Below, in pieces: positions 6,981 to 36,003 of a stretch of DNA of 64,000 nt. Position numbers and translations under genes: made by a program. Source of the stretch: Mucilaginibacter lappiensis (GTDB taxonomy: Bacteria; Bacteroidota; Bacteroidia; Sphingobacteriales; Sphingobacteriaceae); assembly GCF_900155965.1 (NCBI RefSeq), contig NZ_FTMG01000001.1, positions 372,001 to 436,000 of the forward strand, in the 5' to 3' direction. Under the pieces are notes generated by a model that was not told the DNA's origin, did no database searches, and saw only the letters and a program-made list of their open reading frames with translations. Position 1 is the first letter of the stretch. Each line of letters starts with the position of its first letter.

Positions 6981-7022
6981 TGTCCAAAGTTCCTCATTTT
7001 CTGGCGCCCGTCCGTTATAACC

Positions 7023-7056
7023 TTTAACGATTTAACCTTATTTAACTCAACTTAAC
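7023..7056. promoter_or_regulatory. TTTAAC repeat array, likely response-regulator operator
   Basis: TTTAAC occurs at 7023, 7031 and 7041, with CTTAAC at 7051, giving steps of 8, 10 and 10 bp. Direct repeats with near-helical spacing are how OmpR/PhoB regulators bind. The array sits in the divergent gap between the kinase gene and the receptor gene, 38 bp from the receptor start, so it could control both. Confidence 0.55.
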
Positions 7057-7093
7057 TCCTGTTTAGGTTGTCCCGGGATACGTTTGCGGCATA

Positions 7094-10943: not shown

Positions 10944-11156
10944 ATGAGTAAAACAACGTATAATCGTATAAAATCTGTCTTGGCTGAAAAAGGAAAAAGT
11001 AACATAGATTTAGCCGATTCTCTAAATATCACTCCAGAAACTGTTTCTAGTTGGTGCACTAACTCCGCCCAACCATCCATCAAGAGATTATTTGAAGTTG
11101 CTAATATTTTAGATGTTGATGCAAGAGATTTACTAATTTCCACAAAACACAGTTAA
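10944..11156 (+). CDS. Small XRE/Cro-type helix-turn-helix protein
   Basis: 70 residues, essentially one HTH_3 domain: YNRIKSVLAEKGKSNIDLAD, turn, LNITPETVSSWCTNSAQP as recognition helix and hinge, then a closing helix RLFEVANILDVDARDLL. It binds DNA as a small Cro-like regulator. It follows a strongly AT-rich stretch and lies 157 bp before the large nuclease-like gene in the same direction, the typical arrangement of a regulator with an accessory or defence gene. Confidence 0.88.
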   Translation: MSKTTYNRIKSVLAEKGKSNIDLADSLNITPETVSSWCTNSAQPSIKRLFEVANILDVDARDLLISTKHS

Positions 11157-11313
11157 CTTTCTGGTAAGAAAACAATTGGGACATTCTAATATTTAGTTAA
11201 CACTATCCATAGGCCATAGTTAAGAAGTCCATTCTTGAGAAAATGAACTCATATGTCCATGATGAAGATACTTTAATATTTTTTGCTACCTGAAAAATTC
11301 CTAATTTCCAGCG

Positions 11314-13041
11314 ATGGAAATCCTTGTCACTCCTGAATACCGAAATCTCTTTCCTTTCGAAAACGAAACAATGGAAATGCTGTTATTTGACATTCCGTCC
11401 ATTTCGGTAATTGAGTTGTTGGCCTTGATGGATGCTGAACTTTATGCGCATCAAGAGGATGAAGATTCCCAAGTCAAACTAATGGATCTAATGCTTAACA
11501 GACAACCGCCAGCTGTTATAGGTAACATCATGAGCAATGCGCTGAAAGGGCGACAAACCCACGTTCATTTCTTTAGCCAGCATTATAACATGCACCTCCT
11601 TCATTATGAGCTTATAAATTACCGCGAACTGCCCGTGCCCGAGGGAGATTTAACCCCGGAGCAGGAATTGAGGATTTTCAAAGCTTACTTCCTTGCCGCT
11701 CAGCTTGCCGGAAATACACTCGTTTACAAATCAGAGGGTTTACCGGAGTTCAACGAAGACTACTTTTCCAAAATGCTTTGGCCAGGTCTGGCAGATCAGT
11801 TTGAATTCCATTTTCGTATCAATCCCTATTATTTTATGATCAGGGGAGTGGTTCTGTTAAACCACTTACAATTTCATACACCTTATGGTGCCTATGTCGA
11901 AGCATATTTGCGGCAGCATCAAAAGCCAACGGTTTTAAATTACTTTCTGGATATTTTCCAGATGCTTATCGCAAATACTAAATCATTAAACGATCCCAAT
12001 AGAGATTTCGCCGCCTTTTCAATACAAAGATCTCCAGGTTTTGAATCACTTTTTCGTCAATTTACGATGGATAGGCATCACTACACAAAAACTTACAGCG
12101 GAGGAAAGCAAAATTATGCCGGACTGAAATCGAAACCGCTTTATCAACTTGACGAAAAAAAATGGTTAATCCTCAACTGGGGTTTCCTAGCGAATAAACT
12201 ATATGAGGGGCTGGTCTTTGATTTTTATTTAGAATCAGGCATTGCTTCAGACCCCAAATTCTCTGGAATAACTGCTTTCAAACAATTTATATCCCAAGAG
12301 GTAACCGATCAGAAGTTGTTTCGAAAATTACTCAAGGCTGCGTTTGACCATCGCTACGGAACCTTACTGTTCGATGACGGGCAAATAGCGGGCTTTCCTG
12401 ATGCCTATTACAGGCAAGGAAACCGGGTTTATCTCATAGAGCTTAAAGATGCTTATTTCCCGTCAGAGGCGGCCGGCTCCTATTCTTATGAACAAATAAT
12501 CGCGGCTATTGATAAAAAAATAAATAATAAGGGCAAAGGAACTGGCCAGATAATAAAACAGCTTACATATCTCTCGAAGCAACCGTATGAAGAAGCGGGT
12601 CGTTACAAACACACCCGAAACCTCGAGATTTATCCTGTAATTGTGTATACTGACATTCTATTTAATATGCCGGGCGTTAACTACTATGTCGAACAGTCTT
12701 TCCGGCGCCAAGTAAAGGAACATGATCTCGAAAAACATTTCAAAGTGGTCAAACCTCTGACACTGATGAACATTAGCTATTTAATTGAAATCTTTGACCA
12801 ATTAAAGAAGCCGGAAACTGACTTGGGAAAACTGGTCTGCTATCATCATCAGCAAATCAAAACCCGAAAAAAAAGGCATGATAGAACTAATTCGATGTCC
12901 GACCATATCACTATCTACGATGTGTTTGAACACGTAGTTTCGCATATTTTTCCTGAGCCTCAGGACTGCAGCGATTACATTCGCACCGTCACCCATACGC
13001 TGGACCTGGATGAGGGGGTTCCCGGATGGAAACCCAGATAA
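11314..13041 (+). CDS. PD-(D/E)XK nuclease-like protein of unknown function
   Basis: 575 residues, no signal peptide. The first ~300 residues are mostly helical with no fold I recognise. A restriction-enzyme-like core is visible from ~330: P362-D363 in AGFPDAYY, then after a beta turn E376-L-K378 in RVYLIELKD. This is the PD-x(n)-ExK metal site; GQIIKQL follows at ~410 as the usual helix with Gln/Lys. Members cut DNA or RNA in restriction, repair or defence. An XRE gene precedes it and AT-rich accessory genes follow. The catalytic motif looks intact. Substrate unknown; a DNA-targeting defence role is inference only. Confidence 0.65.
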   Translation: MEILVTPEYRNLFPFENETMEMLLFDIPSISVIELLALMDAELYAHQEDEDSQVKLMDLMLNRQPPAVIGNIMSNALKGRQTHVHFFSQHYNMHLLHYELINYRELPVPEGDLTPEQELRIFKAYFLAAQLAGNTLVYKSEGLPEFNEDYFSKMLWPGLADQFEFHFRINPYYFMIRGVVLLNHLQFHTPYGAYVEAYLRQHQKPTVLNYFLDIFQMLIANTKSLNDPNRDFAAFSIQRSPGFESLFRQFTMDRHHYTKTYSGGKQNYAGLKSKPLYQLDEKKWLILNWGFLANKLYEGLVFDFYLESGIASDPKFSGITAFKQFISQEVTDQKLFRKLLKAAFDHRYGTLLFDDGQIAGFPDAYYRQGNRVYLIELKDAYFPSEAAGSYSYEQIIAAIDKKINNKGKGTGQIIKQLTYLSKQPYEEAGRYKHTRNLEIYPVIVYTDILFNMPGVNYYVEQSFRRQVKEHDLEKHFKVVKPLTLMNISYLIEIFDQLKKPETDLGKLVCYHHQQIKTRKKRHDRTNSMSDHITIYDVFEHVVSHIFPEPQDCSDYIRTVTHTLDLDEGVPGWKPR

Positions 13042-20126: not shown

Positions 20127-20972
20127 TTATACAGCCAAGCTTGCCATCTCCCAGGCAATCATGGTTCGTTTCCGCACTTTGCCATACTGAAAATCGCCTA
20201 CGGTACCATCTTTACTTATAATGCGATGGCAGGGAATAAGATATAAAATGGGGTTTTTACCTGCTGCGGAGGCCACAGACCTGATGCCGTTCGCATACCC
20301 CAACTGTGCGGCAACCTGTTGGTATGAACGTACTACGCCAAAGGGGATGTTAACCAGGGCTTCCCATACCTTTACCTGGAAATCAGTCCCCTGCACCAAT
20401 AGGTTGAGCTTTTCCTGAGCGTTTTCGCCGGGCTTAAATATTTTTTGAATATAAGACTGGGTGATATCTGGCCGATGGTTTAATTGGGCAAAGCTCCACT
20501 TCTTTGAAAAGACTTCATACTCTTTGCGGTCGCTATTTTCATCTATAAAATGAAGATCGCAGATCCCCCTATCGGTAATGGCAATAAAGCAGATGCCAAA
20601 TGGCGAAGCATGATAGCCGTAAAAGATCTCTAACCCCACTCCTGCTGATTTAAATTGCTGGGGACTGACGCCTTCAATATTAACGAACAGATCATAAACC
20701 CGCGACTGGCTGGAAAGTCCTGCCAGGTTTGCCGCTTCAATAACGTTTTGGGTTTGGTGAATACTGTTTTTAAGGTAATCCAATGTGAGGTATTGGAGAA
20801 ACTTCTTAGGCGTCAGGCCGACCCAGTCTAAAAAGATCCGCTGAAAATGAAAGGGGCTGAGGTTTATTTTTTCTGCCACCTCATCCAGGTCGGGTTGTTG
20901 CTTAAAATTAGCTGTCATATAGCTGATAGCCTTTTCAATCCGGTAATAGTTTACAGTTAGATCCCTGGTCAT
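20127..20972 (-). CDS. AraC-type domain fused to methylated-DNA--protein-cysteine methyltransferase (Ada-like)
   Basis: 281 residues from the ATG at 20972; an ATG at 21002 would add 10. The first ~100 residues are an AraC helix-turn-helix pair (LDEVAEKINLSPFHFQRIFLDWVGLTPKKFL). The C-terminal ~85 residues are O6-alkylguanine-DNA alkyltransferase with the acceptor Cys in IPCHRII and the DNA-binding RSVASAAGKNP. It transfers alkyl groups from O6-methylguanine to itself. The Ada N-terminal zinc domain with its methyl-phosphotriester Cys cluster is missing, as in other Bacteroidota. An inverted AACTT/AAGTT pair just upstream may be its own operator. Confidence 0.9.
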   Translation of the reverse strand: MTRDLTVNYYRIEKAISYMTANFKQQPDLDEVAEKINLSPFHFQRIFLDWVGLTPKKFLQYLTLDYLKNSIHQTQNVIEAANLAGLSSQSRVYDLFVNIEGVSPQQFKSAGVGLEIFYGYHASPFGICFIAITDRGICDLHFIDENSDRKEYEVFSKKWSFAQLNHRPDITQSYIQKIFKPGENAQEKLNLLVQGTDFQVKVWEALVNIPFGVVRSYQQVAAQLGYANGIRSVASAAGKNPILYLIPCHRIISKDGTVGDFQYGKVRKRTMIAWEMASLAV

Positions 20973-21014
20973 TTCACGTAAAAATAACAAGTTAATAACC
21001 AAGCGGCAACCCGA

Positions 21015-21172: not shown

Positions 21173-24100
21173 ATGAATTATAATTTCCTAAACCGTCTTA
21201 TCCTAAGAAGTCCTTACTACAGCTATCAACATTACTCCCTGCGAGCAATTTCCGATGTGATCCAAACGCCTTCTTTTCAAACTGCCTTATTTTTGGCCAG
21301 CGCTGATCTGTATGCGTTACTTGAAAGCAAACAATTTGAATATCAGGCATTATCCGAAAGGGAGCGGCTTGCCCTACTCCGGTACTACAACCGGATGTGT
21401 TTCAGGCCCACGCCATTTGGCAGCTTTTCCTCGTTTTCTACCGTGTCATGGGGAGAAGGCGGCACCATAAAACTGGATAACCAGCATCCGAGCCTGCATT
21501 TGAACATAGATCAGGAAGTAGTTAGCCAGCTGGCCGGCACGTTGATGGAGATTGACCTATCAAAAGACTATTACAGCTGCAATCCAACGCTTTATCAATC
21601 CGGAAAAGATTTCCGGTTTATTACCACGACCTATTCGACGGACAAAAGCAAGATCTACTTTGACCTGCAATCCATGGAGAGCAACGCCTTAATCGCTGAA
21701 TTATTGAAAACTTATGCCACCGGTTATGTTCAGGGTACACAAATACTGGCGGAGATGGAACGCATATGGGGTTGTGACCGAAGCACGGCATATGATTACC
21801 TGCAGTTTCTGGCAGGCGCTCAAATTTTTATACCCAAAACCACTAATAACATTATCGGCGCTGATTACCTTGAAAGGCTATTGAACCTTGAAAGCGAATC
21901 TCTCAACAAATCCTTGCTTAAAAGTGTATTACGGCGGCTAAAGTCCCCGCGAATTGATCGGGTGGAGTATTTAAAATCCATCAAATCAAGTATTAACGCC
22001 TTTTTAAATAGTTCCGGCCGTCAAACAGCGCCGCAAATATTTTATGCGGGCCTCGAGCTGGGTGTCTTTTCAGGCGCCCTTGATCAGAAGTACAAGGATA
22101 AGATTTCTGACGGGATGCGGGCACTCTCTCTATTGGTCACGTCCTCCCAGCCGCCCATGCTGGAACAGTTCATTCGCGATTTCTCTCAAAAATATGATAA
22201 ACGGAAAATACCGCTGCTACAGGCCCTTGACCCTGATATTGGGATTGGCTACGGTCCGATATTGAATCCCGCAGCGATAACAGATCTGCTCCGGGACATT
22301 CGCTTTAAAAAGCAACAGGAGACGAAAGTTTCGATGGAATGGTCAAAGACTCATCAGCTTTTACTCAGGAAATGGAATGAAAACCCACTTCAAACAGACC
22401 CGATCCAGTTAGATGATGCAGACCTGCAGGTCTTGTCTCCAGGCGAAACGTTGACAACGCCCCCGTCTTTTTCCGCTTTGTTCCGGGTCATTGAAGGCGG
22501 GTTATTCCTGGAAACGGCAGGAGGTGCAACAGCTACCGCTTTAATCGGCCGGTTCACGGCATGGAGTGAGGAAATTCACCAGGTAAGCCAGGAGCTGGCT
22601 GCGAGCGAAGAATTGGCAAACCCGAATGTTATCTTTGCCGATATCGGGCAATTATCCGATCCCCACGCCGATAATATCAACAGGAGAAAACACAGCTACG
22701 CGCATGAAATCGCGATCAATGTTACCTCTACGCTGGGGCCTGATCAACAGATCACGCTAAATGACCTGTGGGTTTCCATCAAGGACGATAAGCTTATCCT
22801 CGAATCTAAGAAGCATCAAAAGACCATCATTCCCAGGTTAACTTCGGCATTTAATTATAGCAGAAACAGCCTGGCGCTCTTCCGGATGCTTTGTGACCTG
22901 CAATTTCAGGATATCCAGGGTTCTTATGATTTTTCTTTAGCGCATTATTTTCCAGGAATGGCCCATTATCCTAAGGTGATGTACAAACAAACCATTTTAA
23001 GCCCGGGAACGTGGCACCTCTCCGACCGGGATGTCCGAGAAATCACGCGGTCTTCACCGGAAAACGCGATAACGAAATGGAACGCACTCCGGGAACAACT
23101 CAAACTTCCTTCCGTAGTGGCCATCAGCAAATCCGACCAGCAACTGGTTTTCCATTTGGATAAGAAGGACGAAGTGCTTTTTCTGATCGACTGCCTGGAG
23201 GGTACGAAACAGGTTTTATTACAGGAATACTATCTGCCGGATGAAAATACCGTCAGAGACCAGAAAGGTAATGCGCTGGTCAATCAATTCATTGCCTCTA
23301 TCTATCAAAACCAGGTCGTTTATCCTGGCGCCGAGGCCTCAGCCCCCCCTGCCGCTCACCATAAAAGCAAGTCAGACTATATTATCGGGAGTCAATGGCT
23401 TTACTTAAAACTCTACTGCAGTCCGGCTATTGCCAACCATATGCTTACCAAAAAGCTCCTTCCGTTATTAGCGCAGCTTGATAAGACAGACTTGCGTTCC
23501 TGGTTCTTCATCCGTTACCGCGATTCCGGCTACCATATCCGCCTGCGGCTTCATATCGCAGAAACGGCAGTCGGACCGATTTTGCTTAAACTTAAAAAGC
23601 GCCTTTCGGAAAGCATTCATTATCACCTGATCAGGGAATACCAAGCCGACACCTATCGCAGGGAGATGGACCGTTACGGTGCAGACATGATCCTGTTGAT
23701 CGAAACTTTTTTCCATGGCAGCAGCGAGCTGATATTGAGGTATATCAAAGTGTCTGGTCTAAAGTCATTTCGGTACAGCTATCATAGCCTGGCGTTCGTG
23801 TCCATCCATCATTTAGTCAGCAGTTTTATCCCCCAAATAACAGACCGCATTGCTTTTCTGGAGCAGATGGTCAGCCTGTTTTATGCAGAGTTTGCAACTG
23901 ATAAATCGCTGAAGATCGACCTGGATCAGAAATACAGGCAATTGAAAACCGAAATAGCCTTGCTTTTAGGCGATGAGCAATATTACGTCAAACTGAAACT
24001 CGCGCTTTGGGCGGACTTCTTTTCGGAGAAGGTCCAGGCGATTTTAAAACGTGCGGCTACCTTTCAGGCAAAACGAAGAAACCAGTTACTGGCGGATATG

Positions 24101-24220
24101 ATCCATATGCATCTTAACCGGCTTTTTGTCGACCGGCAACGGAACCAGGAACTCATCATTTATTACTGTCTTTTAAAATATGAGGTCACCTTAAATGCCA
24201 TCAACAAGAAGCAGACCTAG
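21173..24220 (+). CDS. Full-length class I lanthipeptide dehydratase (LanB)
   Basis: 1015 residues, the usual length for LanB. The N-terminal ~730 residues match the glutamylation domain (starting YNFLNRLILRSPYYSY; RPTPFGSFSSFSTVSWG is the diagnostic N-terminal motif). From ~737 the SpaB-C/thiopeptide elimination domain follows (LKLYCSPAIANHMLTKKLLP, SWFFIRYRDSGYHIRLRL, and YRREMDRYGADMILLIETFF). LanB enzymes use glutamyl-tRNA to activate Ser/Thr of a precursor peptide and eliminate to Dha/Dhb in the cytoplasm. Both domains are present, so it is neither a split dehydratase nor a PEARL. No LanC, transporter or protease lies in the window. Its stop interlocks with that of the LytTR gene. Confidence 0.93.
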   Translation: MNYNFLNRLILRSPYYSYQHYSLRAISDVIQTPSFQTALFLASADLYALLESKQFEYQALSERERLALLRYYNRMCFRPTPFGSFSSFSTVSWGEGGTIKLDNQHPSLHLNIDQEVVSQLAGTLMEIDLSKDYYSCNPTLYQSGKDFRFITTTYSTDKSKIYFDLQSMESNALIAELLKTYATGYVQGTQILAEMERIWGCDRSTAYDYLQFLAGAQIFIPKTTNNIIGADYLERLLNLESESLNKSLLKSVLRRLKSPRIDRVEYLKSIKSSINAFLNSSGRQTAPQIFYAGLELGVFSGALDQKYKDKISDGMRALSLLVTSSQPPMLEQFIRDFSQKYDKRKIPLLQALDPDIGIGYGPILNPAAITDLLRDIRFKKQQETKVSMEWSKTHQLLLRKWNENPLQTDPIQLDDADLQVLSPGETLTTPPSFSALFRVIEGGLFLETAGGATATALIGRFTAWSEEIHQVSQELAASEELANPNVIFADIGQLSDPHADNINRRKHSYAHEIAINVTSTLGPDQQITLNDLWVSIKDDKLILESKKHQKTIIPRLTSAFNYSRNSLALFRMLCDLQFQDIQGSYDFSLAHYFPGMAHYPKVMYKQTILSPGTWHLSDRDVREITRSSPENAITKWNALREQLKLPSVVAISKSDQQLVFHLDKKDEVLFLIDCLEGTKQVLLQEYYLPDENTVRDQKGNALVNQFIASIYQNQVVYPGAEASAPPAAHHKSKSDYIIGSQWLYLKLYCSPAIANHMLTKKLLPLLAQLDKTDLRSWFFIRYRDSGYHIRLRLHIAETAVGPILLKLKKRLSESIHYHLIREYQADTYRREMDRYGADMILLIETFFHGSSELILRYIKVSGLKSFRYSYHSLAFVSIHHLVSSFIPQITDRIAFLEQMVSLFYAEFATDKSLKIDLDQKYRQLKTEIALLLGDEQYYVKLKLALWADFFSEKVQAILKRAATFQAKRRNQLLADMIHMHLNRLFVDRQRNQELIIYYCLLKYEVTLNAINKKQT

Positions 24221-24948
24221 GGTTTTCTCCGGGATTTTAAAAGCACCTCATTCATTTTTTCCAGGAATGGCTCTTTATAGAATCTCCCCAGATTCAAAAC
24301 AGTGCCATTTTCCAGCGTTACACGCGTTTGTTCAACCGCCCTGATCCTGTCGGTGTTGATGATGAATGACTGATGGATCCTGGAAAATTGCGTCATGGGC
24401 AGGTATTGTTCAATTTCGGTTATGGTCAGGTAAGGCATGACCTGACCGGATAACAGGTGGATTTTGATGTAATTCTGAGCCCCTTCTATATAAAGAATGT
24501 CATTAACGGTTACTTTAACCATCTTCCCTTTCATTTCCGTTTTTACAAAGAAAAAATCCCTTTTCTCTTCAGGCTCTGGTTTAGCAATTATCGCCATGCG
24601 CTGGACCCGCTGGACGCTTTTCCTGAAACGCGCGTAGCTTATCGGTTTCAACAAAAAATCGAAAGCTTCCTTTTCAAATGCTTCCAGCGCAAATTCCTGA
24701 AATGAGGTGGTAAAGATGATCCTGGTATACAGGTTGGCCATCCCGGCAAATTCCATCCCGGACAGTTCCGGCATCTCCACGTCCAGAAAGGTAATGTCGG
24801 GCGGGTTGGCCCCGGTAACCTCATTCAGGGCGGTAAGTGGGTTCGTTGAGAAACCCTGCAGCTCCAGGCCGTCAGTTTTCGAGATATATTCAATAAGCAT
24901 TTCGACGGAATGGCGTTCATCATCGATCACGTAACATTTTAAACTCAT
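24217..24948 (-). CDS. LytTR-family response regulator
   Basis: 243 residues. Receiver domain with acidic D9-D10-E11, acceptor D56 in TFLDVEMPELSG and Lys in FLLKPIS. The C-terminal ~105 residues form a LytTR DNA-binding domain (NDILYIEGAQNYIKIHL ... FSRIHQSFIINTDRI). Its start overlaps the kinase stop by 4 bp. The pair sits between the dehydratase and the candidate precursor and very likely controls the RiPP locus, as LytTR systems often do for secreted peptides (inference). Confidence 0.93.
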   Translation of the reverse strand: MSLKCYVIDDERHSVEMLIEYISKTDGLELQGFSTNPLTALNEVTGANPPDITFLDVEMPELSGMEFAGMANLYTRIIFTTSFQEFALEAFEKEAFDFLLKPISYARFRKSVQRVQRMAIIAKPEPEEKRDFFFVKTEMKGKMVKVTVNDILYIEGAQNYIKIHLLSGQVMPYLTITEIEQYLPMTQFSRIHQSFIINTDRIRAVEQTRVTLENGTVLNLGRFYKEPFLEKMNEVLLKSRRKP

Positions 24949-26042
24949 AGTTGCATCGTTAGTTCCACGCCAAAACTGTCGTCTTCATCTTCAATATGAA
25001 GCTGATATTGATGCGGATAATTATATTCCAAACGCTTAATTACATTTTTAATTCCAATCGATCTTAGGCGCCTGTTTTCAGGCTCGTGCTTTTTGAGATT
25101 CCAGCTGTAAAACCTTAGCTCGTTCTGGTCATTCACGGTAATGTGCAATTTAGCTTCCGTATGCTTCGTTTTAAGGTTACCATGCTTAAATATATTCTCC
25201 GTAAGCGTCAACAGGATGAGCGGGATGATTTGCTGCGTCTCCAGATCCCCACTGGTGCTGAAATCAATATACAATTCATAATCGAACCGGAGCTGGTTAA
25301 GTTCAATAAAGTTCCGGATCTGTTCTATCTCCTTATCCAGGGTGGTTTTACCGCGAATATCAACGTCATCCAGGGAAAACCGCATAATATCGACCAGTAA
25401 CAATACGCACTGTGAAGCTTCAGCCGAATATTTATAGTAAGTATTATGAATGAAAGTAAGCGTATTAAAGAGGAAGTGCGGGTTAATCTGCTGTTGCAGG
25501 TAGGCATTCATCGCTTCTGCCAAATTCCGCTCCACTTCCGCTTTCTCCTTTAGAATGACCAATTGATTTGTTTCTGTCTGGTGTACCCGTTTGGTGAATA
25601 CGATCATCCTGAGAACGGCCCAGTACAACGTGCTTACCCCGGCCATATAGATGCCGCGGAAAAGATTCGGGATCAATAATTTCTCGATATATAACCTTGT
25701 GGCGGGAAAGTGCTCTTTCGGAGCGGCCAGGAGTTCGTCCATAGCGTATTTCAAAAACAGGTAGACTGCTAATTCCAATGCAATGAAGATCGGTATGACA
25801 ATATAAGACCGCTTATATTTTATCCCGGCCGATAATAGGACATGCGCATGAAAATAGAACAGCATGATATTCAAGCCATAATAGAAGACATAATCTGAAA
25901 CAGGGGAAAATTCGCCAACGCTGAACCGTATAAAACTCACCTCGTAGGTGATAAAAATCACCCATCCAAGCACGTGTCTAAACAATAATTTCCATCCCAG
26001 TTTCCCGGTGTTGTAGTCTCCTAATTGTAATCTGAATGTCAT
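24945..26042 (-). CDS. LytS/YehU-type membrane histidine kinase
   Basis: 365 residues from the ATG at 26042; the longer frame to 26099 would leave only 35 bp to the divergent precursor gene. Four hydrophobic segments span residues ~15-150. The His-kinase domain carries the phospho-acceptor in QQQINPHFLFNTLTFIHN, and a shortened ATPase domain has LILLTLTENIFKHG and LRSIGIKNVIKRLEYNY. It is coupled to the LytTR regulator and divergent from the candidate precursor, so its signal may be the peptide product or a related envelope cue. Confidence 0.9.
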   Translation of the reverse strand: MTFRLQLGDYNTGKLGWKLLFRHVLGWVIFITYEVSFIRFSVGEFSPVSDYVFYYGLNIMLFYFHAHVLLSAGIKYKRSYIVIPIFIALELAVYLFLKYAMDELLAAPKEHFPATRLYIEKLLIPNLFRGIYMAGVSTLYWAVLRMIVFTKRVHQTETNQLVILKEKAEVERNLAEAMNAYLQQQINPHFLFNTLTFIHNTYYKYSAEASQCVLLLVDIMRFSLDDVDIRGKTTLDKEIEQIRNFIELNQLRFDYELYIDFSTSGDLETQQIIPLILLTLTENIFKHGNLKTKHTEAKLHITVNDQNELRFYSWNLKKHEPENRRLRSIGIKNVIKRLEYNYPHQYQLHIEDEDDSFGVELTMQL

Positions 26043-26134
26043 TGGCCGTAATCTTTCTACACCATCCTGTCGTGCATGTAACAGAGTTGTGACAATCACA
26101 CTTGTACTCCTTATTTGATTAAAAAGTTACCGAT

Positions 26135-26326
26135 ATGAAAAATAATAAGGAAAAAACATTCAAGAAAAAAATCAACAAGATTTACAGCTTCCGGCTTTCA
26201 GAAAACGCGAACTCATCTGAAACCACGGTTGGCGATCCGACCAACACGGTCATCACAGTGCTGACAACGGTTAGCAGGCCCACTCATTTAAACCAGGCCT
26301 CCGATCAGGCGCTGCTCCGTTTTTAA
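26135..26326 (+). CDS. Candidate RiPP precursor peptide, Ser/Thr-rich and cysteine-free
   Basis: 63 residues. A lysine-rich head (residues 2-15) is followed by YSFRLSENA; F19-R-L-S22 resembles the FNLD-type leader box that LanB enzymes read. A possible core from ~23 holds about a dozen Ser/Thr, including T30-T31, T36, T38, T41, T44-T45, S47, T50 and S56, a G33-D34-P35 turn, and no Cys at all. The gene is divergent from the LytS gene and 22 bp before the first helical protein gene. Size, composition and setting fit a dehydratase substrate; without Cys it cannot form lanthionine. Not proven to be translated. Confidence 0.6.
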   Translation: MKNNKEKTFKKKINKIYSFRLSENANSSETTVGDPTNTVITVLTTVSRPTHLNQASDQALLRF

Positions 26327-26347
26327 AGTCATACCTGCATCTATCCT

Positions 26348-27520
26348 ATGTTACAAGATGAGCTCAAGTCGCTGGCAGAATGGGCCGCCGGTTTTTCGTT
26401 AACGAATACCGGCGGCGATCCGCTGCCGTCCGCTTCTTTGGCAGAGCAAAGTTCCGGGTACAAATCAGAATGCATCCGCATCAAAAAAGTCTGGACGGAT
26501 CTGCTGTTGAGTCAAACAAAAGATATCGTTATCAAAAGATACATCTCCTTCCAGCAGCAGTTGATCTGCGAGCTGGCAGACCATATGTACGGGCTAACAA
26601 CATCCGGTAAACCGGCAAATGCAAGCGTAGACGGATCCGGGACTGATCTGGCTGCGTCATTGTTGACCTGCGTTCTCGACCTCCATGATTTTTTAATACA
26701 ATACTTCCGTAGCTATATCAATGAAAACGGGAAAATACCAAATGCCATTTTACCCGCCACGCGAAAAAAGATAGCGGAACCGGCAGTTGACCTAAGCACA
26801 GCGCTGCAAACTGCGGAGATGGACATAGATCTGAAAACCTGCATTTTGGATTATTTAAGCAGACTTGCCGGCACTGATTACCTGCCGCCGGGAACCTACC
26901 GGGAAATGGAGTATGTGCTTACCTTTATGGAGAACCTGCAAACTGTTATCGCTATCGGAGGCGCGGAGGATCTGACGCATGATGTTACAGAAATGCTTTT
27001 TTACATCAACTTTAATCATAGCAGTTTCATTCATTGGTACCGGGAAGATCTGGAGAGGAAAAAGGCATTACTTCAGGCTGCGGATCAGACCGCCCTATTG
27101 ATGAAAGGGCTGCTGCAGCTTAAATCAGCGCCGGTCGCGACAACGATGCAATATGATCCGCATCTCCCCCCGGTAAACGTGCTGCTTGAAACCTGTCTGG
27201 CCGAGTATATCAGGCAGTTGAATTTCCAGGGAGAGTTTTCGGATCCGGAACAAACCGATAAGCTGGAACTGAAACTGACGGTGGCGCAGATGGCATTATT
27301 AACCAGGCTGCTTTACGATGAAGGTATTTTTCCTTTAAAAAACATTAAAGCCATATTGAAATTTTTCACGCTTCATTTTACGAGTAAAAAACAGGAACAT
27401 ATCTCCTATGCGAGTATGAACAAATTGTATTATAGCGCTGACCAGTTCACCGCTTACGCTGTGCGGGAGCTTCTTTTGAGCATGGTGGCAAACATAAATA
27501 AAATGCATTTTCCCACTTAA
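26348..27520 (+). CDS. Helical protein of unknown function, RteC-like C-terminus (paralog A)
   Basis: 390 residues, almost all helical, without signal peptide or membrane segments. The last ~85 residues (LTVAQMALLTRLLYDEGIF ... FFTLHFTSKK ... ISYASMNKLYYS) resemble the C-terminal part of Bacteroidota RteC-type proteins, though I could not verify this. The next gene's product is a clear paralog with the same order of motifs. It follows the candidate precursor by 22 bp on the same strand, so it is probably co-transcribed and may act in maturation, regulation or immunity. No function can be assigned. Confidence 0.6.
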   Translation: MLQDELKSLAEWAAGFSLTNTGGDPLPSASLAEQSSGYKSECIRIKKVWTDLLLSQTKDIVIKRYISFQQQLICELADHMYGLTTSGKPANASVDGSGTDLAASLLTCVLDLHDFLIQYFRSYINENGKIPNAILPATRKKIAEPAVDLSTALQTAEMDIDLKTCILDYLSRLAGTDYLPPGTYREMEYVLTFMENLQTVIAIGGAEDLTHDVTEMLFYINFNHSSFIHWYREDLERKKALLQAADQTALLMKGLLQLKSAPVATTMQYDPHLPPVNVLLETCLAEYIRQLNFQGEFSDPEQTDKLELKLTVAQMALLTRLLYDEGIFPLKNIKAILKFFTLHFTSKKQEHISYASMNKLYYSADQFTAYAVRELLLSMVANINKMHFPT

Positions 27521-27713
27521 GCTACGGTCACGATACCTATTGTGAACAATGATCCAACCTTTTACCAACCTTTCTAACCTACCTTAATTTGAAAAATCAC
27601 ATACTGTTTCCCAAATGCACTTTTACTGTGCAGATCCCTTTTTCGCGATTCGATATCATATGCAGGGTGCTGAGATCAGCCATTGCCCGTAGAAACCTTA
27701 TCTGGAGTCGCTT

Positions 27714-28895
27714 ATGAATTATATATCTACCCAACTTCAGCTGTTTCTCCGTGATACCGTCCATCCGCAAAACTTAGCAGGTCAGCAAATTTCAGAAGAA
27801 GAGTTCTCCAGATGGAAATCGTTTCTTAAAGAAGAAATATCGGGAACACTGCTGGCCATACAAAACTCAACATCAACCAGTAACGGCAAAGAAGCAAAAG
27901 ACCTCAGGGCCGCAGTCGCTATTGTATATCATCTCAGTAACACAGTAAACAGGTACCTGACCAGGTATTTACCTGTTTGGAAAAGGCATAACCAGGCAAA
28001 GGAGATCAAAACGCATTATAAATATACCATTGCTTTACTGAATAGGTTACAATCTTCCATTTACGAGTGGTATCCTTCTATAGAACCGGCATCACGGGTG
28101 ACCAATTTTGCTTTGCCGCAAATAAAAATGGAGCTAAGACAGCAAGTAAAAACACTGGAAGGGAAACTAACCGGGTCCGGAATTCAGCAGGAGCTTCAGG
28201 ACCTGGTGACACCAGGCTTTATCCAATTGATCAATAAAAAGAACCTGACTATCGGACAGGTAAAATATATCGAAGAGTTACTGGCAGATATTTCGATGGA
28301 ACCGCTATTGAGTACACAGTTGTTAACCGGTTTATTGATCGTCCGCGATTTCAACTTGCCTGAGTTTTTTCTTTATTGCGTAAACAATATACAGGACAAA
28401 CTCGATGACCTTCCGGGACTTCACGAACAAAAAGAATTCTTGCTGCAGGAAAAAAACATGCTTTATGATCTCGCTTTAAGGAGCGCAAAAAGCGCGAATG
28501 TTCAATCATCGATGCTATACCGGGAATTAAATAGCTTTCTGGATGAAAAATACCTCTTCCTCAAGCAGCTGGTCAAGGTCAGAAAAGATGCCATGCGGGA
28601 TCAGCAACAGCCCCTTTCAGGTCTCAGATTTAAGATCAACCTGTCTGTGCCGCAATTCGGGTTATTCATCAGAATGCAAATGGAGCGGGATATTTTATCA
28701 AAAGAAAAGGTCGGGGATATTTTTGAATTTTTCGCCCATCATTTTTATACGGCAAATACGGCGTTAATATCCCCGGAAAGCCTGCAAAAAAAGTCCACCG
28801 ATGTGGAATTTACGACCGCACAGAAAATGAAAGGGCATTTGATCGGCATGCTCAACTGGCTCAATACGAATTACAATTTGTCAAACTACAATTAA
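27714..28895 (+). CDS. Helical protein of unknown function (paralog B)
   Basis: 393 residues, helical, soluble. The C-terminus (LSVPQFGLFIRMQMERDIL ... FFAHHFYTANTALISPESLQKK) aligns with paralog A at L-S/T-V-x-Q, a mid-helix Arg, FF-x-x-HF and I-S-x-x-S. The middle region also aligns (a Tyr/Phe-rich segment followed by EKKxxLLQ-like helix). The two genes are a tandem duplication that has diverged strongly. The 193-bp gap before it holds no second peptide gene that I can see. Function unknown; membership in the RiPP locus is inferred from position. Confidence 0.6.
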   Translation: MNYISTQLQLFLRDTVHPQNLAGQQISEEEFSRWKSFLKEEISGTLLAIQNSTSTSNGKEAKDLRAAVAIVYHLSNTVNRYLTRYLPVWKRHNQAKEIKTHYKYTIALLNRLQSSIYEWYPSIEPASRVTNFALPQIKMELRQQVKTLEGKLTGSGIQQELQDLVTPGFIQLINKKNLTIGQVKYIEELLADISMEPLLSTQLLTGLLIVRDFNLPEFFLYCVNNIQDKLDDLPGLHEQKEFLLQEKNMLYDLALRSAKSANVQSSMLYRELNSFLDEKYLFLKQLVKVRKDAMRDQQQPLSGLRFKINLSVPQFGLFIRMQMERDILSKEKVGDIFEFFAHHFYTANTALISPESLQKKSTDVEFTTAQKMKGHLIGMLNWLNTNYNLSNYN

Positions 28896-28901
28896 GATTC
28901 C

Positions 28902-29129
28902 TTACAAATTATTCTCCTGAAACTGCCTGAGCAGGCCCTGCTCTTTTAAAAGATTAAGCAGCTGGGTATACCAGGTAAAGCTGAACTCATGGTGCAGTTT
29001 CAATTTGGCAAGATTTACCTTCATCACATCCTCCAGATTAAACAACTGAAGTTTTTCCGCTTGCTTAATGAAAAGGCTATTCATGCCTAATTTCGAAAAA
29101 GAAATCAATAGGTTAGCTTCCTCTACCAT
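28902..29129 (-). CDS. Small hypothetical protein, possible helix-hairpin-helix
   Basis: 75 residues, converging with paralog B 6 bp away. The pattern LGMNSLFIKQAEKLQLFNLEDVM ... FTWYTQLLNLLKEQGLL looks like a pair of short helices as in RNA-polymerase alpha C-terminal or helix-hairpin-helix modules. Such small proteins occur in Bacteroidota, but I know no function. Codon use looks coding. Confidence 0.5.
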   Translation of the reverse strand: MVEEANLLISFSKLGMNSLFIKQAEKLQLFNLEDVMKVNLAKLKLHHEFSFTWYTQLLNLLKEQGLLRQFQENNL

Positions 29130-31714: not shown

Positions 31715-31897
31715 TTACCCATCCCGCAGCCGGATGAGCTTTTGATAAACATCCTCCCAATAGGCTTTCAATCCCTCATCCAAAACGCTGAACGAGGGGT
31801 CAACATGCTGATAGTGACGGTAATCATCCGCCTGTAAGATGGCAAGTTCCAAATCAGTCACGGTAATTTCCTTACCGTTTAAATCAATTATCTTCAT
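31715..31897 (-). CDS. Small hypothetical protein at the end of the PRTRC operon
   Basis: 60 residues, acidic, starting KIIDLNGKEITVTDLELAI and containing WEDVYQKLIRLRD. It is 11 bp downstream of the ThiF gene on the same strand and is the last gene of the operon. Proteins of this size and style accompany Bacteroidota PRTRC cassettes, but no function is known. Confidence 0.65.
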   Translation of the reverse strand: MKIIDLNGKEITVTDLELAILQADDYRHYQHVDPSFSVLDEGLKAYWEDVYQKLIRLRDG

Positions 31898-31908
31898 CAG
31901 AATTAGTT

Positions 31909-32712
31909 TTAGGCCACTTTCAGGGCAGCTGTTTTAAAGTTTTTGATGTCGAGGAACAGGCCACGGTGGGCGATCATGCCATCGCTGAGCAATTGCCACA
32001 GCAATTCCGCACCGAACACGGCCAAAGCCGTGTTGATATATAAATCCTGCTTCCGGAGGGCTTCCGCCTGTGAGCAGCTCGGCTCGTCGTTATCGTCCAC
32101 GGCCTCTAACAGCCCTTTAAACTCGTCCGTCACTTTGGGCAGGACAGCCACGGTATTGAAGCGCTCCGATTCCGGCTGCTTGATCCCGGCAAGGGTAGCT
32201 AAGAGCAGCTGCCCTGTAAAACGGCTGTTGCCTAAATCCATCCAGTAAAAAGGCTTGGCACGGTCATTCCGGCTGTTGTTGCAAACCTTGCGCAGGGCAG
32301 CGGCAATATCAAACCGTGCGCTTACGGTGTCGACACAGGTAATAAAGATATTCGCCTTTCCAAAGGAAGGCAAGAGGTGAAGCGTTTTGGTACTGTAGCG
32401 TTCGGGGATTGCCTTCCAGTTCGTACCGTTACAGCGATTGATGCGGTTGATTAAAACCACAGCTTTAAAATGTCCTATTTCAGATGGGGCGAATAGCTGC
32501 CGCCCGAGGTTTGCCCCGGTGATAATGTCATCATCAAAGACGTTGACCTGCAAACCGGGCCGTCCGAGAGCAATCAGGGAAACGTGCATGCGGACGAGTT
32601 CCGTCAGCATGCGGTGACCAGTCCCTCCCGCTCCGATGAGGTTAAAGGTGATGGGATTAGTTGGATTGAGCAGAACGTCATCCGTAAAGTGCATGGCGGT
32701 TAATGTTTTCAT
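31909..32712 (-). CDS. PRTRC system ThiF-family protein
   Basis: 267 residues with a ThiF/E1-type nucleotide-binding fold: FNLIGAGGTGHRML as glycine-rich loop, VFDDDIITGANLGRQLF with the NxxRQ motif that binds ATP in E1-like enzymes, and a KAVVLINRIN helix. E1-like proteins adenylate the C-terminus of a ubiquitin-like protein. In PRTRC cassettes the target is unknown. It overlaps the B gene by 4 bp (ATGA). I see no obvious E1 catalytic Cys motif, so activity may stop at adenylation. Confidence 0.88.
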   Translation of the reverse strand: MKTLTAMHFTDDVLLNPTNPITFNLIGAGGTGHRMLTELVRMHVSLIALGRPGLQVNVFDDDIITGANLGRQLFAPSEIGHFKAVVLINRINRCNGTNWKAIPERYSTKTLHLLPSFGKANIFITCVDTVSARFDIAAALRKVCNNSRNDRAKPFYWMDLGNSRFTGQLLLATLAGIKQPESERFNTVAVLPKVTDEFKGLLEAVDDNDEPSCSQAEALRKQDLYINTALAVFGAELLWQLLSDGMIAHRGLFLDIKNFKTAALKVA

Positions 32713-33425
32713 TTGATGAGGTCTTTAAGGGTTAATTTGATAGGGATCAGTTTGTCAAGGGGAAAGGGTTCACCTGTGTTTACAAGGCTTTGCCACAGCT
32801 GAACGATATTGCCTTTTACGGGGCTTCCCCCGCCAAGCGTATGACTAAAAAAGCTGTTAAAGAAGTAGGTTTCCCACAAGCGGATAAACGCTTCAAGGCA
32901 GCAATCTTTGGGAATTTGGATGCTGACTGTGCCGAGGCACACTTTGCCATCCTCGTAGACATTAAAATAAGGGGTTTTATATAAGTTGGTATGCAATTCA
33001 GCGGGTGTGTCGGCATATAAAGCATACACCTGAAGCGTTCCCCGCTGCGCTTTCCAGATCATGGGCGGGATATTCGCCTCCCCGCTGGGGATGGACAACG
33101 TATCCTTAAACAAAAGCCGCACCTTTTGGGCAGGCGTTTGCCATAAGACAAAAGCGTTGTGCCCCCGGTTGATGTACAGTACATTTTTGGGCAACAGGCC
33201 GACCGGGTCTAAAAATCCCGTCTGCAAATCCTCGGAAGTGTCCAAAGCCCGGGCAAAGGCCATGCTTTCCTGCAGAGACAAAGGATGGGCGTTAATGGGT
33301 CTTCCGTTAGGGTCGAAATCAAAGGACTGCACGTAAATATCCTTTTTTACAGGATTCCGGCAGATCAGCAGGGCTTTAAACGGCTCGTATAAATGCCCGA
33401 ATTGTTGGGCGATATCTTTTCTCAT
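32709..33425 (-). CDS. PRTRC system protein B
   Basis: 238 residues. The position directly upstream of ThiF, size and motifs such as LLPKNVLYIN, HNAFVLWQTPAQKVRLLF and PAELHTNLYKTPYFNVYEDGKVCLG agree with PRTRC protein B, a family defined only by this cassette. It overlaps both neighbours by 4 bp, so translation is tightly coupled. The C-terminus has YFFNSFFSHTLGGG. Biochemical role unknown. Confidence 0.85.
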   Translation of the reverse strand: MRKDIAQQFGHLYEPFKALLICRNPVKKDIYVQSFDFDPNGRPINAHPLSLQESMAFARALDTSEDLQTGFLDPVGLLPKNVLYINRGHNAFVLWQTPAQKVRLLFKDTLSIPSGEANIPPMIWKAQRGTLQVYALYADTPAELHTNLYKTPYFNVYEDGKVCLGTVSIQIPKDCCLEAFIRLWETYFFNSFFSHTLGGGSPVKGNIVQLWQSLVNTGEPFPLDKLIPIKLTLKDLIK

Positions 33426-34504
33426 AACAGGTCGTATAAAATATTAGAAAGGTTTTCAATGAGTTCAAAAAGGCGGTATTCGAATTTCAGGTCTTTGATT
33501 TCAGAGGCTGTGCCGTCATGCACCCGTACGGCTTTGGGAATGGCGATTTCCGCAAAGTTCCCTAAATAGTCGTTGATCTGCCGTTGAATGCTATCAAACA
33601 CCCATCCCCGGCTATCCCCGATAAAGGAGACGAAAGCTTCGGGTGTGGCTACTTCCTCCTCGTCAAAGGAGGAGTCAATGTTTTGGAACACCCAATTACC
33701 GGGAAAGTCAAGCGACAGCTGTAACGCTTCTTTGGCGACAACCAGGCATTCCTCCTCCAGTTCATTTTGCGGATCAAACTTTTCGATGTTCTCCGCAAAG
33801 TGCTCTAAATGATAGCGGTTATAAATTTTTCGGTGCATGATGTCCCCGCAGATTTCATTTCTGACAATGTCCGATAAATCCTCCTCATATTCGTCCGGCT
33901 CTTCCCCGACCGATTCCAGAAAAAACTCCCTGTTCATGGCGTATTCGTCAAAGAGGTAACTGCCTTCGTCCCTGTAATAGGGAATCCCGGCCTCCCGGTA
34001 GAGGTAGCTGATGACGGCAAGCAATAAATTACCGCAGGCCTTGTTTGCTTTAACCCGCAGAAAGCGGTAAAGCGGGATTACGGGGATATAAAAAAGCGAT
34101 CCGCCAAACTCGTAGGCCTGCTCCGTAGCTAAAACCACCCGCCTGTCCCCTTTAGTCCGGGTGATCGTCAGTTCCGTTTCTTCCGGCTGTCTGTTTAATT
34201 TCCGGCTGATGTCCCGATGAGTTAACAGGATGTTGTAAGGGTACGGTACACCTCGTACTTCCATCGGTGTTAACCCATGCAGGTTGCAAAGAAGCGTTGC
34301 AGATTCATAAAATGCATTTTCCGTTTCCGCCTGCGGGGGCAGCTTCCCGGCAGCATGGCAAAGGGGAAGAAAGCTGTGGTTCAGAAAACCATCGGTACTT
34401 CGCGGAGCGGTGCTGACCGGGCTTTGTCTGTTAAGACCGCCTGTGCGTCCGGCAGCCTGTCGAGGTTTTGGGCGAATGTTCCTAATTGCTGGTAGAGTTT
34501 GCAT
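33422..34504 (-). CDS. PRTRC-associated protein, positional equivalent of protein F
   Basis: 360 residues between the C and B genes, where protein F lies in proteobacterial cassettes as far as I recall. The length is close to F. The first ~60 residues are Pro/Arg-rich and look disordered; the rest is mixed alpha/beta with acidic patches (VGEEPDEYEEDLSD, SSFDEEEVATPEAF). I see no catalytic motif. It overlaps protein B by 4 bp. The F label is inference from order; direct homology was not tested. Confidence 0.6.
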   Translation of the reverse strand: MQTLPAIRNIRPKPRQAAGRTGGLNRQSPVSTAPRSTDGFLNHSFLPLCHAAGKLPPQAETENAFYESATLLCNLHGLTPMEVRGVPYPYNILLTHRDISRKLNRQPEETELTITRTKGDRRVVLATEQAYEFGGSLFYIPVIPLYRFLRVKANKACGNLLLAVISYLYREAGIPYYRDEGSYLFDEYAMNREFFLESVGEEPDEYEEDLSDIVRNEICGDIMHRKIYNRYHLEHFAENIEKFDPQNELEEECLVVAKEALQLSLDFPGNWVFQNIDSSFDEEEVATPEAFVSFIGDSRGWVFDSIQRQINDYLGNFAEIAIPKAVRVHDGTASEIKDLKFEYRLFELIENLSNILYDLL

Positions 34505-34559
34505 AGTCTTTTTGATTTTGGCGGGCTGATGAAACCCGCCTTTATGTTGGCTGCCATGA

Positions 34560-34775
34560 TTATCCCTTTGTTCCTAATGTGGTGACAAACTGGTATTCCG
34601 CTTTGTCGTTCTTAAATTCCGGCCCTACTATTTTGGCGGTGGCGAGGATAGCATAGATGGTGCTGTAGAAATCGCACACCTCTTTGGGGCTGAGGTTATT
34701 ATCGGGATCAGTTAAGATTATCTCCTGCCCGTTTTCCTTATGGATAAAAACCCGTGGTAATAAATCGCTGAACAT
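34560..34775 (-). CDS. PRTRC system protein C
   Basis: 71 residues. Small size, place after E, and the pattern RVFIHKENGQEIILTDPDNNLSPKEV followed by FYSTIYAILATAKIVGPEF fit PRTRC protein C, whose members start with a ubiquitin-like beta grasp-style strand pair and a P-x-x-x-x-x-FY motif. A small partner for the ThiF E1-like protein is conceivable, but it has no C-terminal Gly-Gly. Function unknown. Confidence 0.8.
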   Translation of the reverse strand: MFSDLLPRVFIHKENGQEIILTDPDNNLSPKEVCDFYSTIYAILATAKIVGPEFKNDKAEYQFVTTLGTKG

Positions 34776-34795
34776 AATTGATGTCTTTTTTAATT

Positions 34796-35362
34796 TTATA
34801 ATAATTTGATTTGTGCCAATTGCTCCTTTTTGCGGTTGAGGTCATTCCGCAGGTTTTTGAGTTCCGTTCCCTTTTCGGGGTATTCTTCCAAAGCGGGAAT
34901 CAGCAGGATGGCCTCCTCATATTTACAGCTTGCGTTCAACTCGCCAATGGTTTTCATAGCGGTTTCGTAGGCCTTTTTCTTTTCCAGTTTAGGGTCGGGC
35001 ATTTCCTGATCGGGTATCTTCGCTAAGGTGGTTACCGCTGTTTTGACGGCCTTATCGGTCAGGGCAGGTTTGGAGAGGGCCTTCGCTCTGTCCAGACCTT
35101 TGCGGTAATCCTCCATGTTATGAAAAATACCTGCGGTCTCCTTTACAGGATTGGCTATCGTGTCAAAAAAGGTGCTGTCCATTTCTTCGGGCGTACCACT
35201 TAGAATAAATGGCGGGACGACTTTGGCAGCCTGTGTCCCGTTGTTATGGATATTGAATAAACCCATAATTTTGATATGGCCTTGTTCATCGGTGGTGATG
35301 CCGATCTTCCAAACTCCGGGAACGTTAAGGCTTGCTATATTTTGAAAAAAGTTAGTGGTCAT
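34796..35362 (-). CDS. PRTRC system protein E
   Basis: 188 residues. N-terminal MTTNFFQNIASLNVPGVW and central VVPPFILSGTPEEMDSTFF fit PRTRC protein E, which has an N-terminal beta domain and a helical, lysine-rich C-terminal half (KLEKKKAYETAMKTIGEL ... LRNDLNRKKEQLAQIKLL), probably coiled coil. It is the first of the core E-C-F-B-ThiF run. Function unknown. Confidence 0.82.
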   Translation of the reverse strand: MTTNFFQNIASLNVPGVWKIGITTDEQGHIKIMGLFNIHNNGTQAAKVVPPFILSGTPEEMDSTFFDTIANPVKETAGIFHNMEDYRKGLDRAKALSKPALTDKAVKTAVTTLAKIPDQEMPDPKLEKKKAYETAMKTIGELNASCKYEEAILLIPALEEYPEKGTELKNLRNDLNRKKEQLAQIKLL

Positions 35363-35367
35363 GTCGT

Positions 35368-35613
35368 TTAATTTTTAGTATTCATTTGTTCGTAATCACC
35401 AGCCTGTTTCATCAGGCGTGTACCCTTGCCCCGCTCATAAACTGCATGATAGCCGTTAGTTTCAAGGATGCTGCGGATATAGTTTTGTGCGCTCCCTGCC
35501 TGCTGTGCATCTGCTGCAGTCATATCCAGTTGCGCCAGTTCAGCAAAAAAACGGAGGCTTTTGGCTAATGCTTTTAAAGCTTTCCTTTCAGTCTTGACTG
35601 ATAAATTGCTCAT
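35368..35613 (-). CDS. Small hypothetical protein in PRTRC operon
   Basis: 81 residues, basic, helical (ERKALKALAKSLRFFAELAQL), ending in polar sequence. It sits 5 bp upstream of protein E on the same strand. No family recognised. Membership in the cassette is inferred from spacing. Confidence 0.65.
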   Translation of the reverse strand: MSNLSVKTERKALKALAKSLRFFAELAQLDMTAADAQQAGSAQNYIRSILETNGYHAVYERGKGTRLMKQAGDYEQMNTKN

Positions 35614-35625
35614 TATCTGTGCTTA

Positions 35626-36003
35626 TTAAGGGTTAAAGAAAAAGTCCACAGCCATTTTAAATTTGGGGTCGCTGTGTTTACCCTGTCCGGTATAGGTGGT
35701 CAGGCAATGGTGCAGAAATAAAGCGCCGTAGCCATCAAATAACTGGTCAGCAAAGAGGCTGCTGCTTTTTTCGAGCTGTTTACCGTACCGTTTTATTTTG
35801 CGTGCGGTATCTTCGGAGAGCTGAAACCAAAAATCCACCCCGAACAGTTGGTCTTTCCAGACCTTGCGCACCTCTTCAGGGTTCACCCTCATATAGGCGG
35901 ATAACTGCTGTACGTAGGCCAGAAAACCGGGCATTTCGGAAATCAGCAGAGCGTGTAACAGCTTTGCTTTCTGAACATTATTTAATTTATCTAAAGTTTG
36001 CAT
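35626..36003 (-). CDS. Hypothetical protein in PRTRC operon
   Basis: 125 residues, helical, no signal peptide. Motifs such as KAKLLHALLISEMPGFLAYV and LTTYTGQGKHSDPKFKMAVDFFF look like a conserved accessory protein of Bacteroidota mobile elements, but I cannot name it. It lies between DUF932 and the small 81-residue gene, 12 bp from the latter. Confidence 0.65.
   Translation of the reverse strand: MQTLDKLNNVQKAKLLHALLISEMPGFLAYVQQLSAYMRVNPEEVRKVWKDQLFGVDFWFQLSEDTARKIKRYGKQLEKSSSLFADQLFDGYGALFLHHCLTTYTGQGKHSDPKFKMAVDFFFNP

Follow-up and report, generated by a model that had tools for sequence, protein, structure and literature searches.

What does a lantibiotic dehydratase make when the peptide encoded beside it contains no cysteine? 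The question is raised by a 64,000-nucleotide stretch of the Mucilaginibacter lappiensis genome (contig NZ_FTMG01000001.1, positions 372,001 to 436,000; hereafter the window, numbered from its first letter), in which a full-length class I dehydratase (LanB) lies near a short gene for a Thr-rich peptide. A locus for a ribosomally synthesized and post-translationally modified peptide (RiPP) had been proposed here from the sequence alone; that observation is correct, and the unit is real. Our favored answer, which we hold at a probability of about 50%, is that LanB turns the core Thr residues into dehydrobutyrine and that the linear product signals to its own LytS/LytTR pair. Four genes carry this reading:

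21173..24220, plus strand: lanB, full-length class I lantibiotic dehydratase (1015 aa; PF04738 E 1.1e-83, PF14028 E 4.7e-56)
24217..24948, minus strand: LytTR-type response regulator (243 aa; PF00072 and PF04397), adjoining the kinase in most loci examined
24945..26099, minus strand: LytS-type (PF06580) membrane histidine kinase, called from Pfam and hydrophobic segments (likely start 26042, 365 aa)
26135..26326, plus strand: Cys-free precursor peptide with core GDPTNTVITVLTTVSR... (63 aa; conserved family, purifying selection)

LanB is thus followed by the convergent regulator and kinase genes, then by the peptide gene, which is divergent from the kinase, and finally by two genes termed P390 and P393. 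The dehydratase is complete: coverage of the Pfam models runs nearly end to end (PF04738 2-646 of 649, PF14028 1-254 of 255), bearing out the original prediction of a 1015-residue LanB with both glutamylation and elimination domains. PEARL (peptide aminoacyl-tRNA ligase) enzymes, which make the pearlins, are LanB-like proteins without an elimination domain; the window LanB differs in that PF14028 is fully covered. A profile of 14 LanBs retrieves NisB from the PDB (E 1.1e-57), and the columns matching NisB R83, R87, T89, D121, R464, R784, R786, E823, and R826, which we take to be important residues in NisB, are invariant across the 14 aligned LanBs. An IHxHxNR segment with an invariant His sits at the expected place of NisB H961, presumably another such residue, in a region where the alignment is only partly displayed.

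The peptide open reading frame (ORF) begins 1.9 kb past LanB, is rich in Thr/Ser, and has zero Cys, just as first described. It is more than a chance reading frame, since it occupies the same place in related loci and its ratio of nonsynonymous to synonymous substitution rates (dN/dS) is about 0.07-0.53 over six close pairs of relatives (window against locus L069: dN 0.205, dS 0.873). We compared 40 loci of the same genus as the window, mostly 18 kb long and taken around the best LanB or P390 matches, some of them picked after LanB and P390 were seen together. A family peptide, recognized as a short Thr-rich ORF, is present in 36 of the 40, and in the four loci without it (L085, L090, L094, L095) no kinase was detected either. 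Overall, 72 of the 76 loci examined carry the peptide; its presence in 34 of the 34 loci L146-L179 is not independent, because these were picked from profile matches.

Alignments of 35 and then 72 members revealed a conserved layout: a K-rich start, a [YIFV]x[FY] segment, a variable stretch, and the motif D-P-T-(N/T)-x-T-x-T-x-x-T-T. Among the 66 of 72 peptides with a recognizable D(P/T/V)-T-like motif, Thr occupies core positions 3, 6, 8, 11, and 12 in 62, 45, 51, 52, and 46 peptides, respectively, and 60 are Cys-free from the motif onward; 52 of all 72 members have no Cys anywhere. The Thr/Ser positions had been singled out for a conservation check, and the core Thr positions are indeed kept while Cys is not. 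The FRLS leader-like box that had been put forward for the same check fared differently: the string is particular to the window sequence in both alignments, and we rejected it as a conserved leader box. Four members (L093, L099, L101, L147) form a sub-family with a single Cys at a fixed core position (DPTNxCTT) that is Thr in most members, possibly a switch between ring-free and ring-bearing products. The window peptide, the one member run against Pfam, has no match there; five members have no NCBIfam match, and the lanthipeptide leader model NF038153 (lant_leader_L1a) matches neither the window peptide nor the four relatives tested. A search of the genome contigs with the single window peptide found no relative; the profile search did find the family.

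How closely is this peptide tied to LanB? A 35-row peptide profile run over 399 genomes of the same family gave 143 matches in 100 genomes. Among the LanB matches listed, which make these counts lower bounds, a LanB lies within 6 kb of at least 52 of the 54 best matches and at least 89 of all 143 (median distance, 1.9 kb). The two of the top 54 without a listed LanB are one at a contig end (L103, genome G118) and one that has a LanB 1.6 kb off (L146, genome G125). The peptide gene is thus conserved with LanB in related genomes, so the first finding that would have refuted the original prediction did not appear. A LanB also occurs somewhere in 46 of the 46 other-genus genomes with a peptide match. 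In a phylum sample, only 7 of 395 genomes match the profile at E ≤ 0.01, and three of the seven have in-frame stops in the match; the profile under-reaches, because three Chitinophaga/Pontibacter loci, reached through LanB, hold recognizable family peptides, including a 40-aa member in Pontibacter silvestris (L182). Altogether, the gene recurs widely within a single Bacteroidota family, and in a small number of related organisms, next to a sensor-regulator pair of its own and usually a lantibiotic-type dehydratase. This suggests a hitherto undescribed kind of modified peptide, a signal or perhaps an antibiotic, and not an ordinary lantibiotic.

Of all its neighbors, it is the histidine kinase, not LanB, that accompanies the peptide most regularly. 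In 70 of 72 loci (69 before a start was corrected in L077), the kinase gene closest to the peptide gene is divergent from it, and the two are separated by a median of 89 bp from start to start; the distance is 1.55 kb in L072, with more ORFs in the gap, and no kinase was detected in L154. The order of genes is not fixed, as L086 and L087 have the peptide between kinase and LanB, but its divergence from the kinase is kept. In the window, the kinase ORF opens with a GTG at 26099, and an internal ATG at 26042 leaves 92 bp to the peptide; the ATG is probably the true start, because the closest homologues are 365 aa long. This side-by-side placement of peptide gene, membrane kinase, and response regulator is the layout of peptide quorum-sensing systems. 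In addition, across the 63 of 72 loci with a full kinase and LytTR, differences between peptides correlate more closely with differences in the sensor half of the kinase (partial r 0.44) than with those in its kinase half (0.23; permutation p 0.001).

The peptide also occurs with the sensor where LanB is missing. We examined 26 of the 54 matches without a listed LanB nearby, and 26 of 26 have a histidine kinase and/or LytTR neighbor; three of these supposed orphans (L146, L169, L178) do have a LanB, and in the other 23 none is seen within the sequence covered, which in some cases stops at a contig end. This suggests that peptide plus sensor is the minimal module. The host genome holds two peptide modules (contigs C30 and C33), and genome G420 holds five matches, one of which is among the loci examined. 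Four orphan modules (L148, L163, L170, L179) carry a gene for 607 aa beside the kinase, an M60 peptidase with an F5/8 type C domain in L179, and in L163, L170, and L179 this is followed by a gene for 227 aa (PAP2 in L179).

Two further features of the window precede the peptide gene:

26068..26083, plus strand: TGTCGTGCATGTAACA, a copy of the GNGTAA[CT]A element that recurs upstream of peptide genes
26110..26119, plus strand: cttatttgat, a candidate -7 promoter element of the peptide gene by comparison with the Bacteroidota consensus, with TAATTTG(A)-like strings in close relatives (by eye)

The GNGTAA[CT]A element, which is probably the LytTR site, occurs in 33 of 72 peptide upstream regions, versus a mean of 1.2 and a maximum of 5 in 20 dinucleotide shuffles and 2 on the reverse strand. 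In a thinned set it is found in 16 of 44 regions, and its median position is 59 bp ahead of the ATG. The window 16-mer has no second copy at ≤2 mismatches in the 6.79-Mb host genome, which suggests that the regulon is local and not widespread; a more degenerate site would go unnoticed at this stringency.

Would the product carry lanthionine rings? In the 99.7% complete host genome, a PF05147 search found one LANC_like protein, which by eye lacks the CHG and WCYG zinc motifs, so the lack of LanC first noted for the window extends, for LanC with zinc motifs, to the whole genome. LANC_like proteins at E ≤ 0.001 are absent from 21 of 46 locus-bearing genomes. A Cys-containing precursor used by the enzyme from elsewhere, the other finding that would have refuted the original prediction, did not turn up in the host genome, where no NF038153 precursor scores over the cut-off; within the window, a pattern search found no other precursor with an LxLxK-type leader, and it is not exhaustive, as the pattern misses the precursor of L146. 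In two related loci, however, a distinct precursor with Cys accompanies LanB. L146 encodes first the Cys-free peptide (8363-8506) and then a Cys-rich precursor (8577-8783; NF038153 22 bits, equal to the cut-off), LanC, and LanB; in Chitinophaga sp. CF118 (L181), a Cys precursor (3077-3241; 26.2 bits), LanC, and LanB are followed further on by the Cys-free peptide. By eye, both LanCs depart from the zinc motifs despite the Cys precursor in the locus, with CFS in place of CHG in L146 (8889-10088) and GYG in place of CYG in L181 (6773-7945). In L181 and C. tropicalis (L183), the genes after the peptide encode a NusG-like protein, called by Pfam in L181 and by sequence likeness in L183, and a nonribosomal peptide synthetase (NRPS) condensation protein.

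Dehydration without rings is thus the best reading, because the catalytic positions are kept, there is no LanC with zinc motifs, and no NF038153 leader exceeds the cut-off. The linear dehydroamino-acid product initially suggested therefore stands as the best account of the chemistry, with LanB co-conservation and the kept Thr positions in its favor; its FRLS leader does not. Modules without LanB in cis, several modules per genome, and the arrangement of L146, where the Cys-free peptide lies ahead of the lanthipeptide genes as a regulatory gene would, may in turn point to a signal role.

The remaining two genes of the unit are as follows:

26348..27520, plus strand: P390, helical protein without family assignment (390 aa; 21 bp after the peptide gene)
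27714..28895, plus strand: P393, distant paralogue of P390 (393 aa; also in L069 and L099)

P390 and P393 share 16% identity (alignment A1) and fall in one BLAST cluster. Both had been counted as part of the unit together with the LytTR/LytS pair; the pair is part of it, P390 is a frequent member, present in 27 of the 40 loci (in L076 only as a 150-aa ORF), and P393 is a rare member. Neither protein has a Pfam or NCBIfam match over cut-off, and across 29 P390 members the best E values were 0.011 (Pfam) and 0.035 (NCBIfam), with no match to PF09357, the RteC family. An AlphaFold model of P390 is all-helical (predicted local distance difference test 84.3, predicted template modeling score 0.64) and matches no PDB fold at E ≤ 0.001. 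An hhalign comparison with RteC aligned 81 columns close to the C-terminus at 61% probability (E 8e-5); given the PF09357, fold, and hhalign results, an RteC identity of P390 is not supported. In 10 of the 40 loci, P390 is followed by a gene for an RteC-type protein (both members tested match PF09357) and by putative tra genes, named by us from the look of the sequences; some of the loci therefore probably lie on conjugative elements. Small ORFs of 75-81 aa, alpha-CTD-like by eye, lie near the 3' ends of P390/P393 (window 28902-29129, minus strand; L052 1281-1520; L062 1275-1520; L096 5288-5524), and in L154 a P390-like protein fused to a TetR-type-looking N-terminus (11107-12861; by eye) lies beside LanB and the Cys-free peptide.

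In the mechanism we favor, the peptide gene would encode a small RiPP with a Cys-free threonine-ladder core (DPTNTVITVLTTV). LanB would recognize the N-terminal K-rich/[YIFV]x[FY] segment, glutamylate core Thr/Ser via Glu-tRNA, and eliminate glutamate to give a linear, dehydrobutyrine-rich peptide, with no lanthionine formed. Once matured and exported, the peptide may serve as a private signal for the LytS-type kinase encoded next to it, and the LytTR regulator would act at the GTAAC-type element of the shared, divergent promoter. This promoter may drive an operon of peptide and P390 and, in the host genome, perhaps not much more. Of the two halves of this proposal, dehydration of the peptide by LanB is probable and well supported, and signaling by the peptide is conjectural.

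Several observations weigh against this proposal. At the level of chemistry, NisB D299, which we take to be important for glutamylation, falls on a non-Asp column of the LanB alignment. Core Cys occurs in 6 of the 66 motif-bearing peptides (the four of the sub-family plus L151 and L156), so rings are possible in some relatives, and in 5 of the 46 locus-bearing genomes (G003, G015, G028, G125, G144) a LANC_like protein lies, by eye, less than 15 kb from a LanB. Neither an exporter nor a leader protease was identified in the unit, although no search was aimed at transporters or proteases. As for linkage, 16 of 46 family genomes without a peptide match also have a LanB, including two of two in genus g14, where LanB may therefore simply be common; these 46 are mostly of another genus and not a genus-matched control. 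On the signaling side, the peptide-sensor covariation is weak, and the Mantel test leaves in shared phylogeny and different rates; the GNGTAA[CT]A element is unmatched in 39 of 72 upstream regions; and the orphan modules may be relics (in L149, the kinase gene, 6100-7130 on the minus strand, looks disrupted beside an intact peptide ORF).

The main rival is an antibiotic with NisRK-like autoinduction: a linear dehydrated bacteriocin that the kinase and LytTR regulator sense and autoinduce, as NisRK do for nisin, with P390/P393 in immunity or processing. A peptide with a two-component system fits this equally well, which counts against a dedicated signal; most of the best-scoring loci carry LanB in cis, the closely following and often retained P390 would suit such a role, and the mobile-element neighbors in part of the loci fit bacteriocin cargo. 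We nevertheless regard it as rather unlikely, given peptide-plus-kinase modules that have no LanB in the fetched stretch and mostly no P390 either, the L146 peptide lying beside a separate Cys-rich precursor that resembles a real lanthipeptide, and an exporter or immunity transporter that was not identified (no search was aimed at them). Alternatively, LanB could act on another precursor, and the Thr-rich peptide could be a regulatory peptide that stays unmodified and serves the two-component system controlling LanB or neighboring genes. The constancy of the kinase rather than LanB as partner and the Cys-containing precursors of L146 and L181 agree with this, but the window (by the non-exhaustive pattern) holds no other LxLxK-type precursor and the genome none over cut-off, the conserved positions are Thr, and the LanB linkage of the best matches is very strong, making it a distinctly less probable account.

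Two further explanations carry little weight. If the peptide, LytTR pair, and an RteC-like P390 were a regulatory module controlling the transfer of integrative conjugative elements, the RteC-type and putative tra genes after P390 and the hhalign similarity to RteC would follow naturally; however, 30 of the 40 loci show no tra-like cluster in their 18-kb stretch (no tra models were run over the window), and the P390 members lack PF09357 and the model lacks a PDB fold match, so we consider this very improbable. The least probable is an ordinary class I lanthipeptide locus with its Cys precursor and LanC elsewhere in the genome. Relatives such as L181 and L146 do combine LanB, LanC, and a Cys precursor, but the nearly complete host genome offers a single LANC_like protein devoid of CHG/WCYG and no NF038153 hit over cut-off, and nearly half of the locus-bearing genomes have no LANC_like protein at E ≤ 0.001.

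How does dehydration coupled to private signaling compare with known systems? Class I lanthipeptides of the nisin type and of the Bacteroidota LxLxK-leader family share with the window unit a full-length LanB with catalytic positions, a short precursor, and a nearby two-component system; the window unit differs in having no core Cys and no LanC, and neither LanT nor LanP was seen in it (no search was aimed at them). Its peptide family has neither of the class I leaders, FNLD or LxLxKx5L, and its regulator is of LytTR type, whereas NisR is an OmpR-type regulator. Linaridins have Thr-rich cores with dehydrobutyrines made by their own enzymes, so the product type would be the same, but here the enzyme is LanB. 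In Agr and ComX quorum sensing, a peptide gene, a modifying enzyme (AgrB or ComQ), and a membrane kinase likewise adjoin, and Agr also has a LytTR regulator; here the modifying enzyme would be LanB, with a PF06580 LytS-like kinase, in Bacteroidota. Goadsporin has no thioether rings. Goadsporin and thiopeptides are alike in dehydroamino-acid chemistry, but their LanB is split and the window LanB is fused; YcaO/azole enzymes were not noticed in the ORF lists of the unit, over which no YcaO model was run. That LanB-type chemistry gives dehydroamino acids in these compounds is described in PMC10676384. Cyanotins, in turn, pair lanthipeptide-type LanM enzymes with Cys-free precursors (accessible part of PMC7268733); these enzymes are class II LanM rather than LanB, and a kinase pairing is not mentioned for cyanotins in that part of the source. 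The same portion describes a lanthipeptide mining study in which precursors were sought within seven genes of a LanC-domain protein, and loci without LanC would therefore escape such LanC-anchored mining.

Within the open-access literature, to which any claim of novelty is limited, we found no report from Bacteroidota of LanB precursors that lack Cys and are paired with LytS/LytTR. Should the peptide prove to be a signal, this would be a type of peptide quorum sensing with LanB as maturase, none of which we found for Bacteroidota in the same literature, and it would open a way to manipulate the lanthipeptide and NRPS genes that adjoin some of the modules. It also makes testable whether LanB enzymes serve a ring-free purpose. 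More tentatively, and with some doubt, Bacteroidota pheromones might comprise LanB-dehydrated, Cys-free linear peptides, each with its own LytS/LytTR, where one dehydratase could serve several modules set before lanthipeptide or NRPS genes or beside conjugative elements.

The surroundings of the unit include a minus-strand gene (20127-21002) directly upstream of and divergent from lanB, which encodes an AraC-type helix-turn-helix fused to an O6-methylguanine-DNA methyltransferase domain. PRTRC cassettes are associated with mobile elements, and one lies just downstream of the unit on the minus strand (31715-36003; ThiF and E above cut-off, B under cut-off). The ORF list of the window also contains a TolC/CzcC-like outer-membrane protein (62207-63463) and an Nramp-like transporter (60879-62174), both read from the sequences. 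A resistance-nodulation-division (RND)/TolC exporter upstream of LanB in relatives was considered and dropped, as the neighbors resemble SusC/SusD/TlpA (sequences, by eye). Elsewhere in the host genome, contig C33 holds a second RiPP region (about 95.5-115.7 kb; L005 525-10215, L006) with three radical SAM proteins, two of which were tested and match YhhB/FxsB-type maturase models best, under cut-offs. Also encoded there are a further full LanB, a pair of paralogous peptides that lack Cys and have SFRLNLDELT leaders, an alcohol-dehydrogenase-like protein, and a protein that weakly matches a peptide arginase; the region adjoins the second module of LanB, kinase, and Thr-rich peptide.

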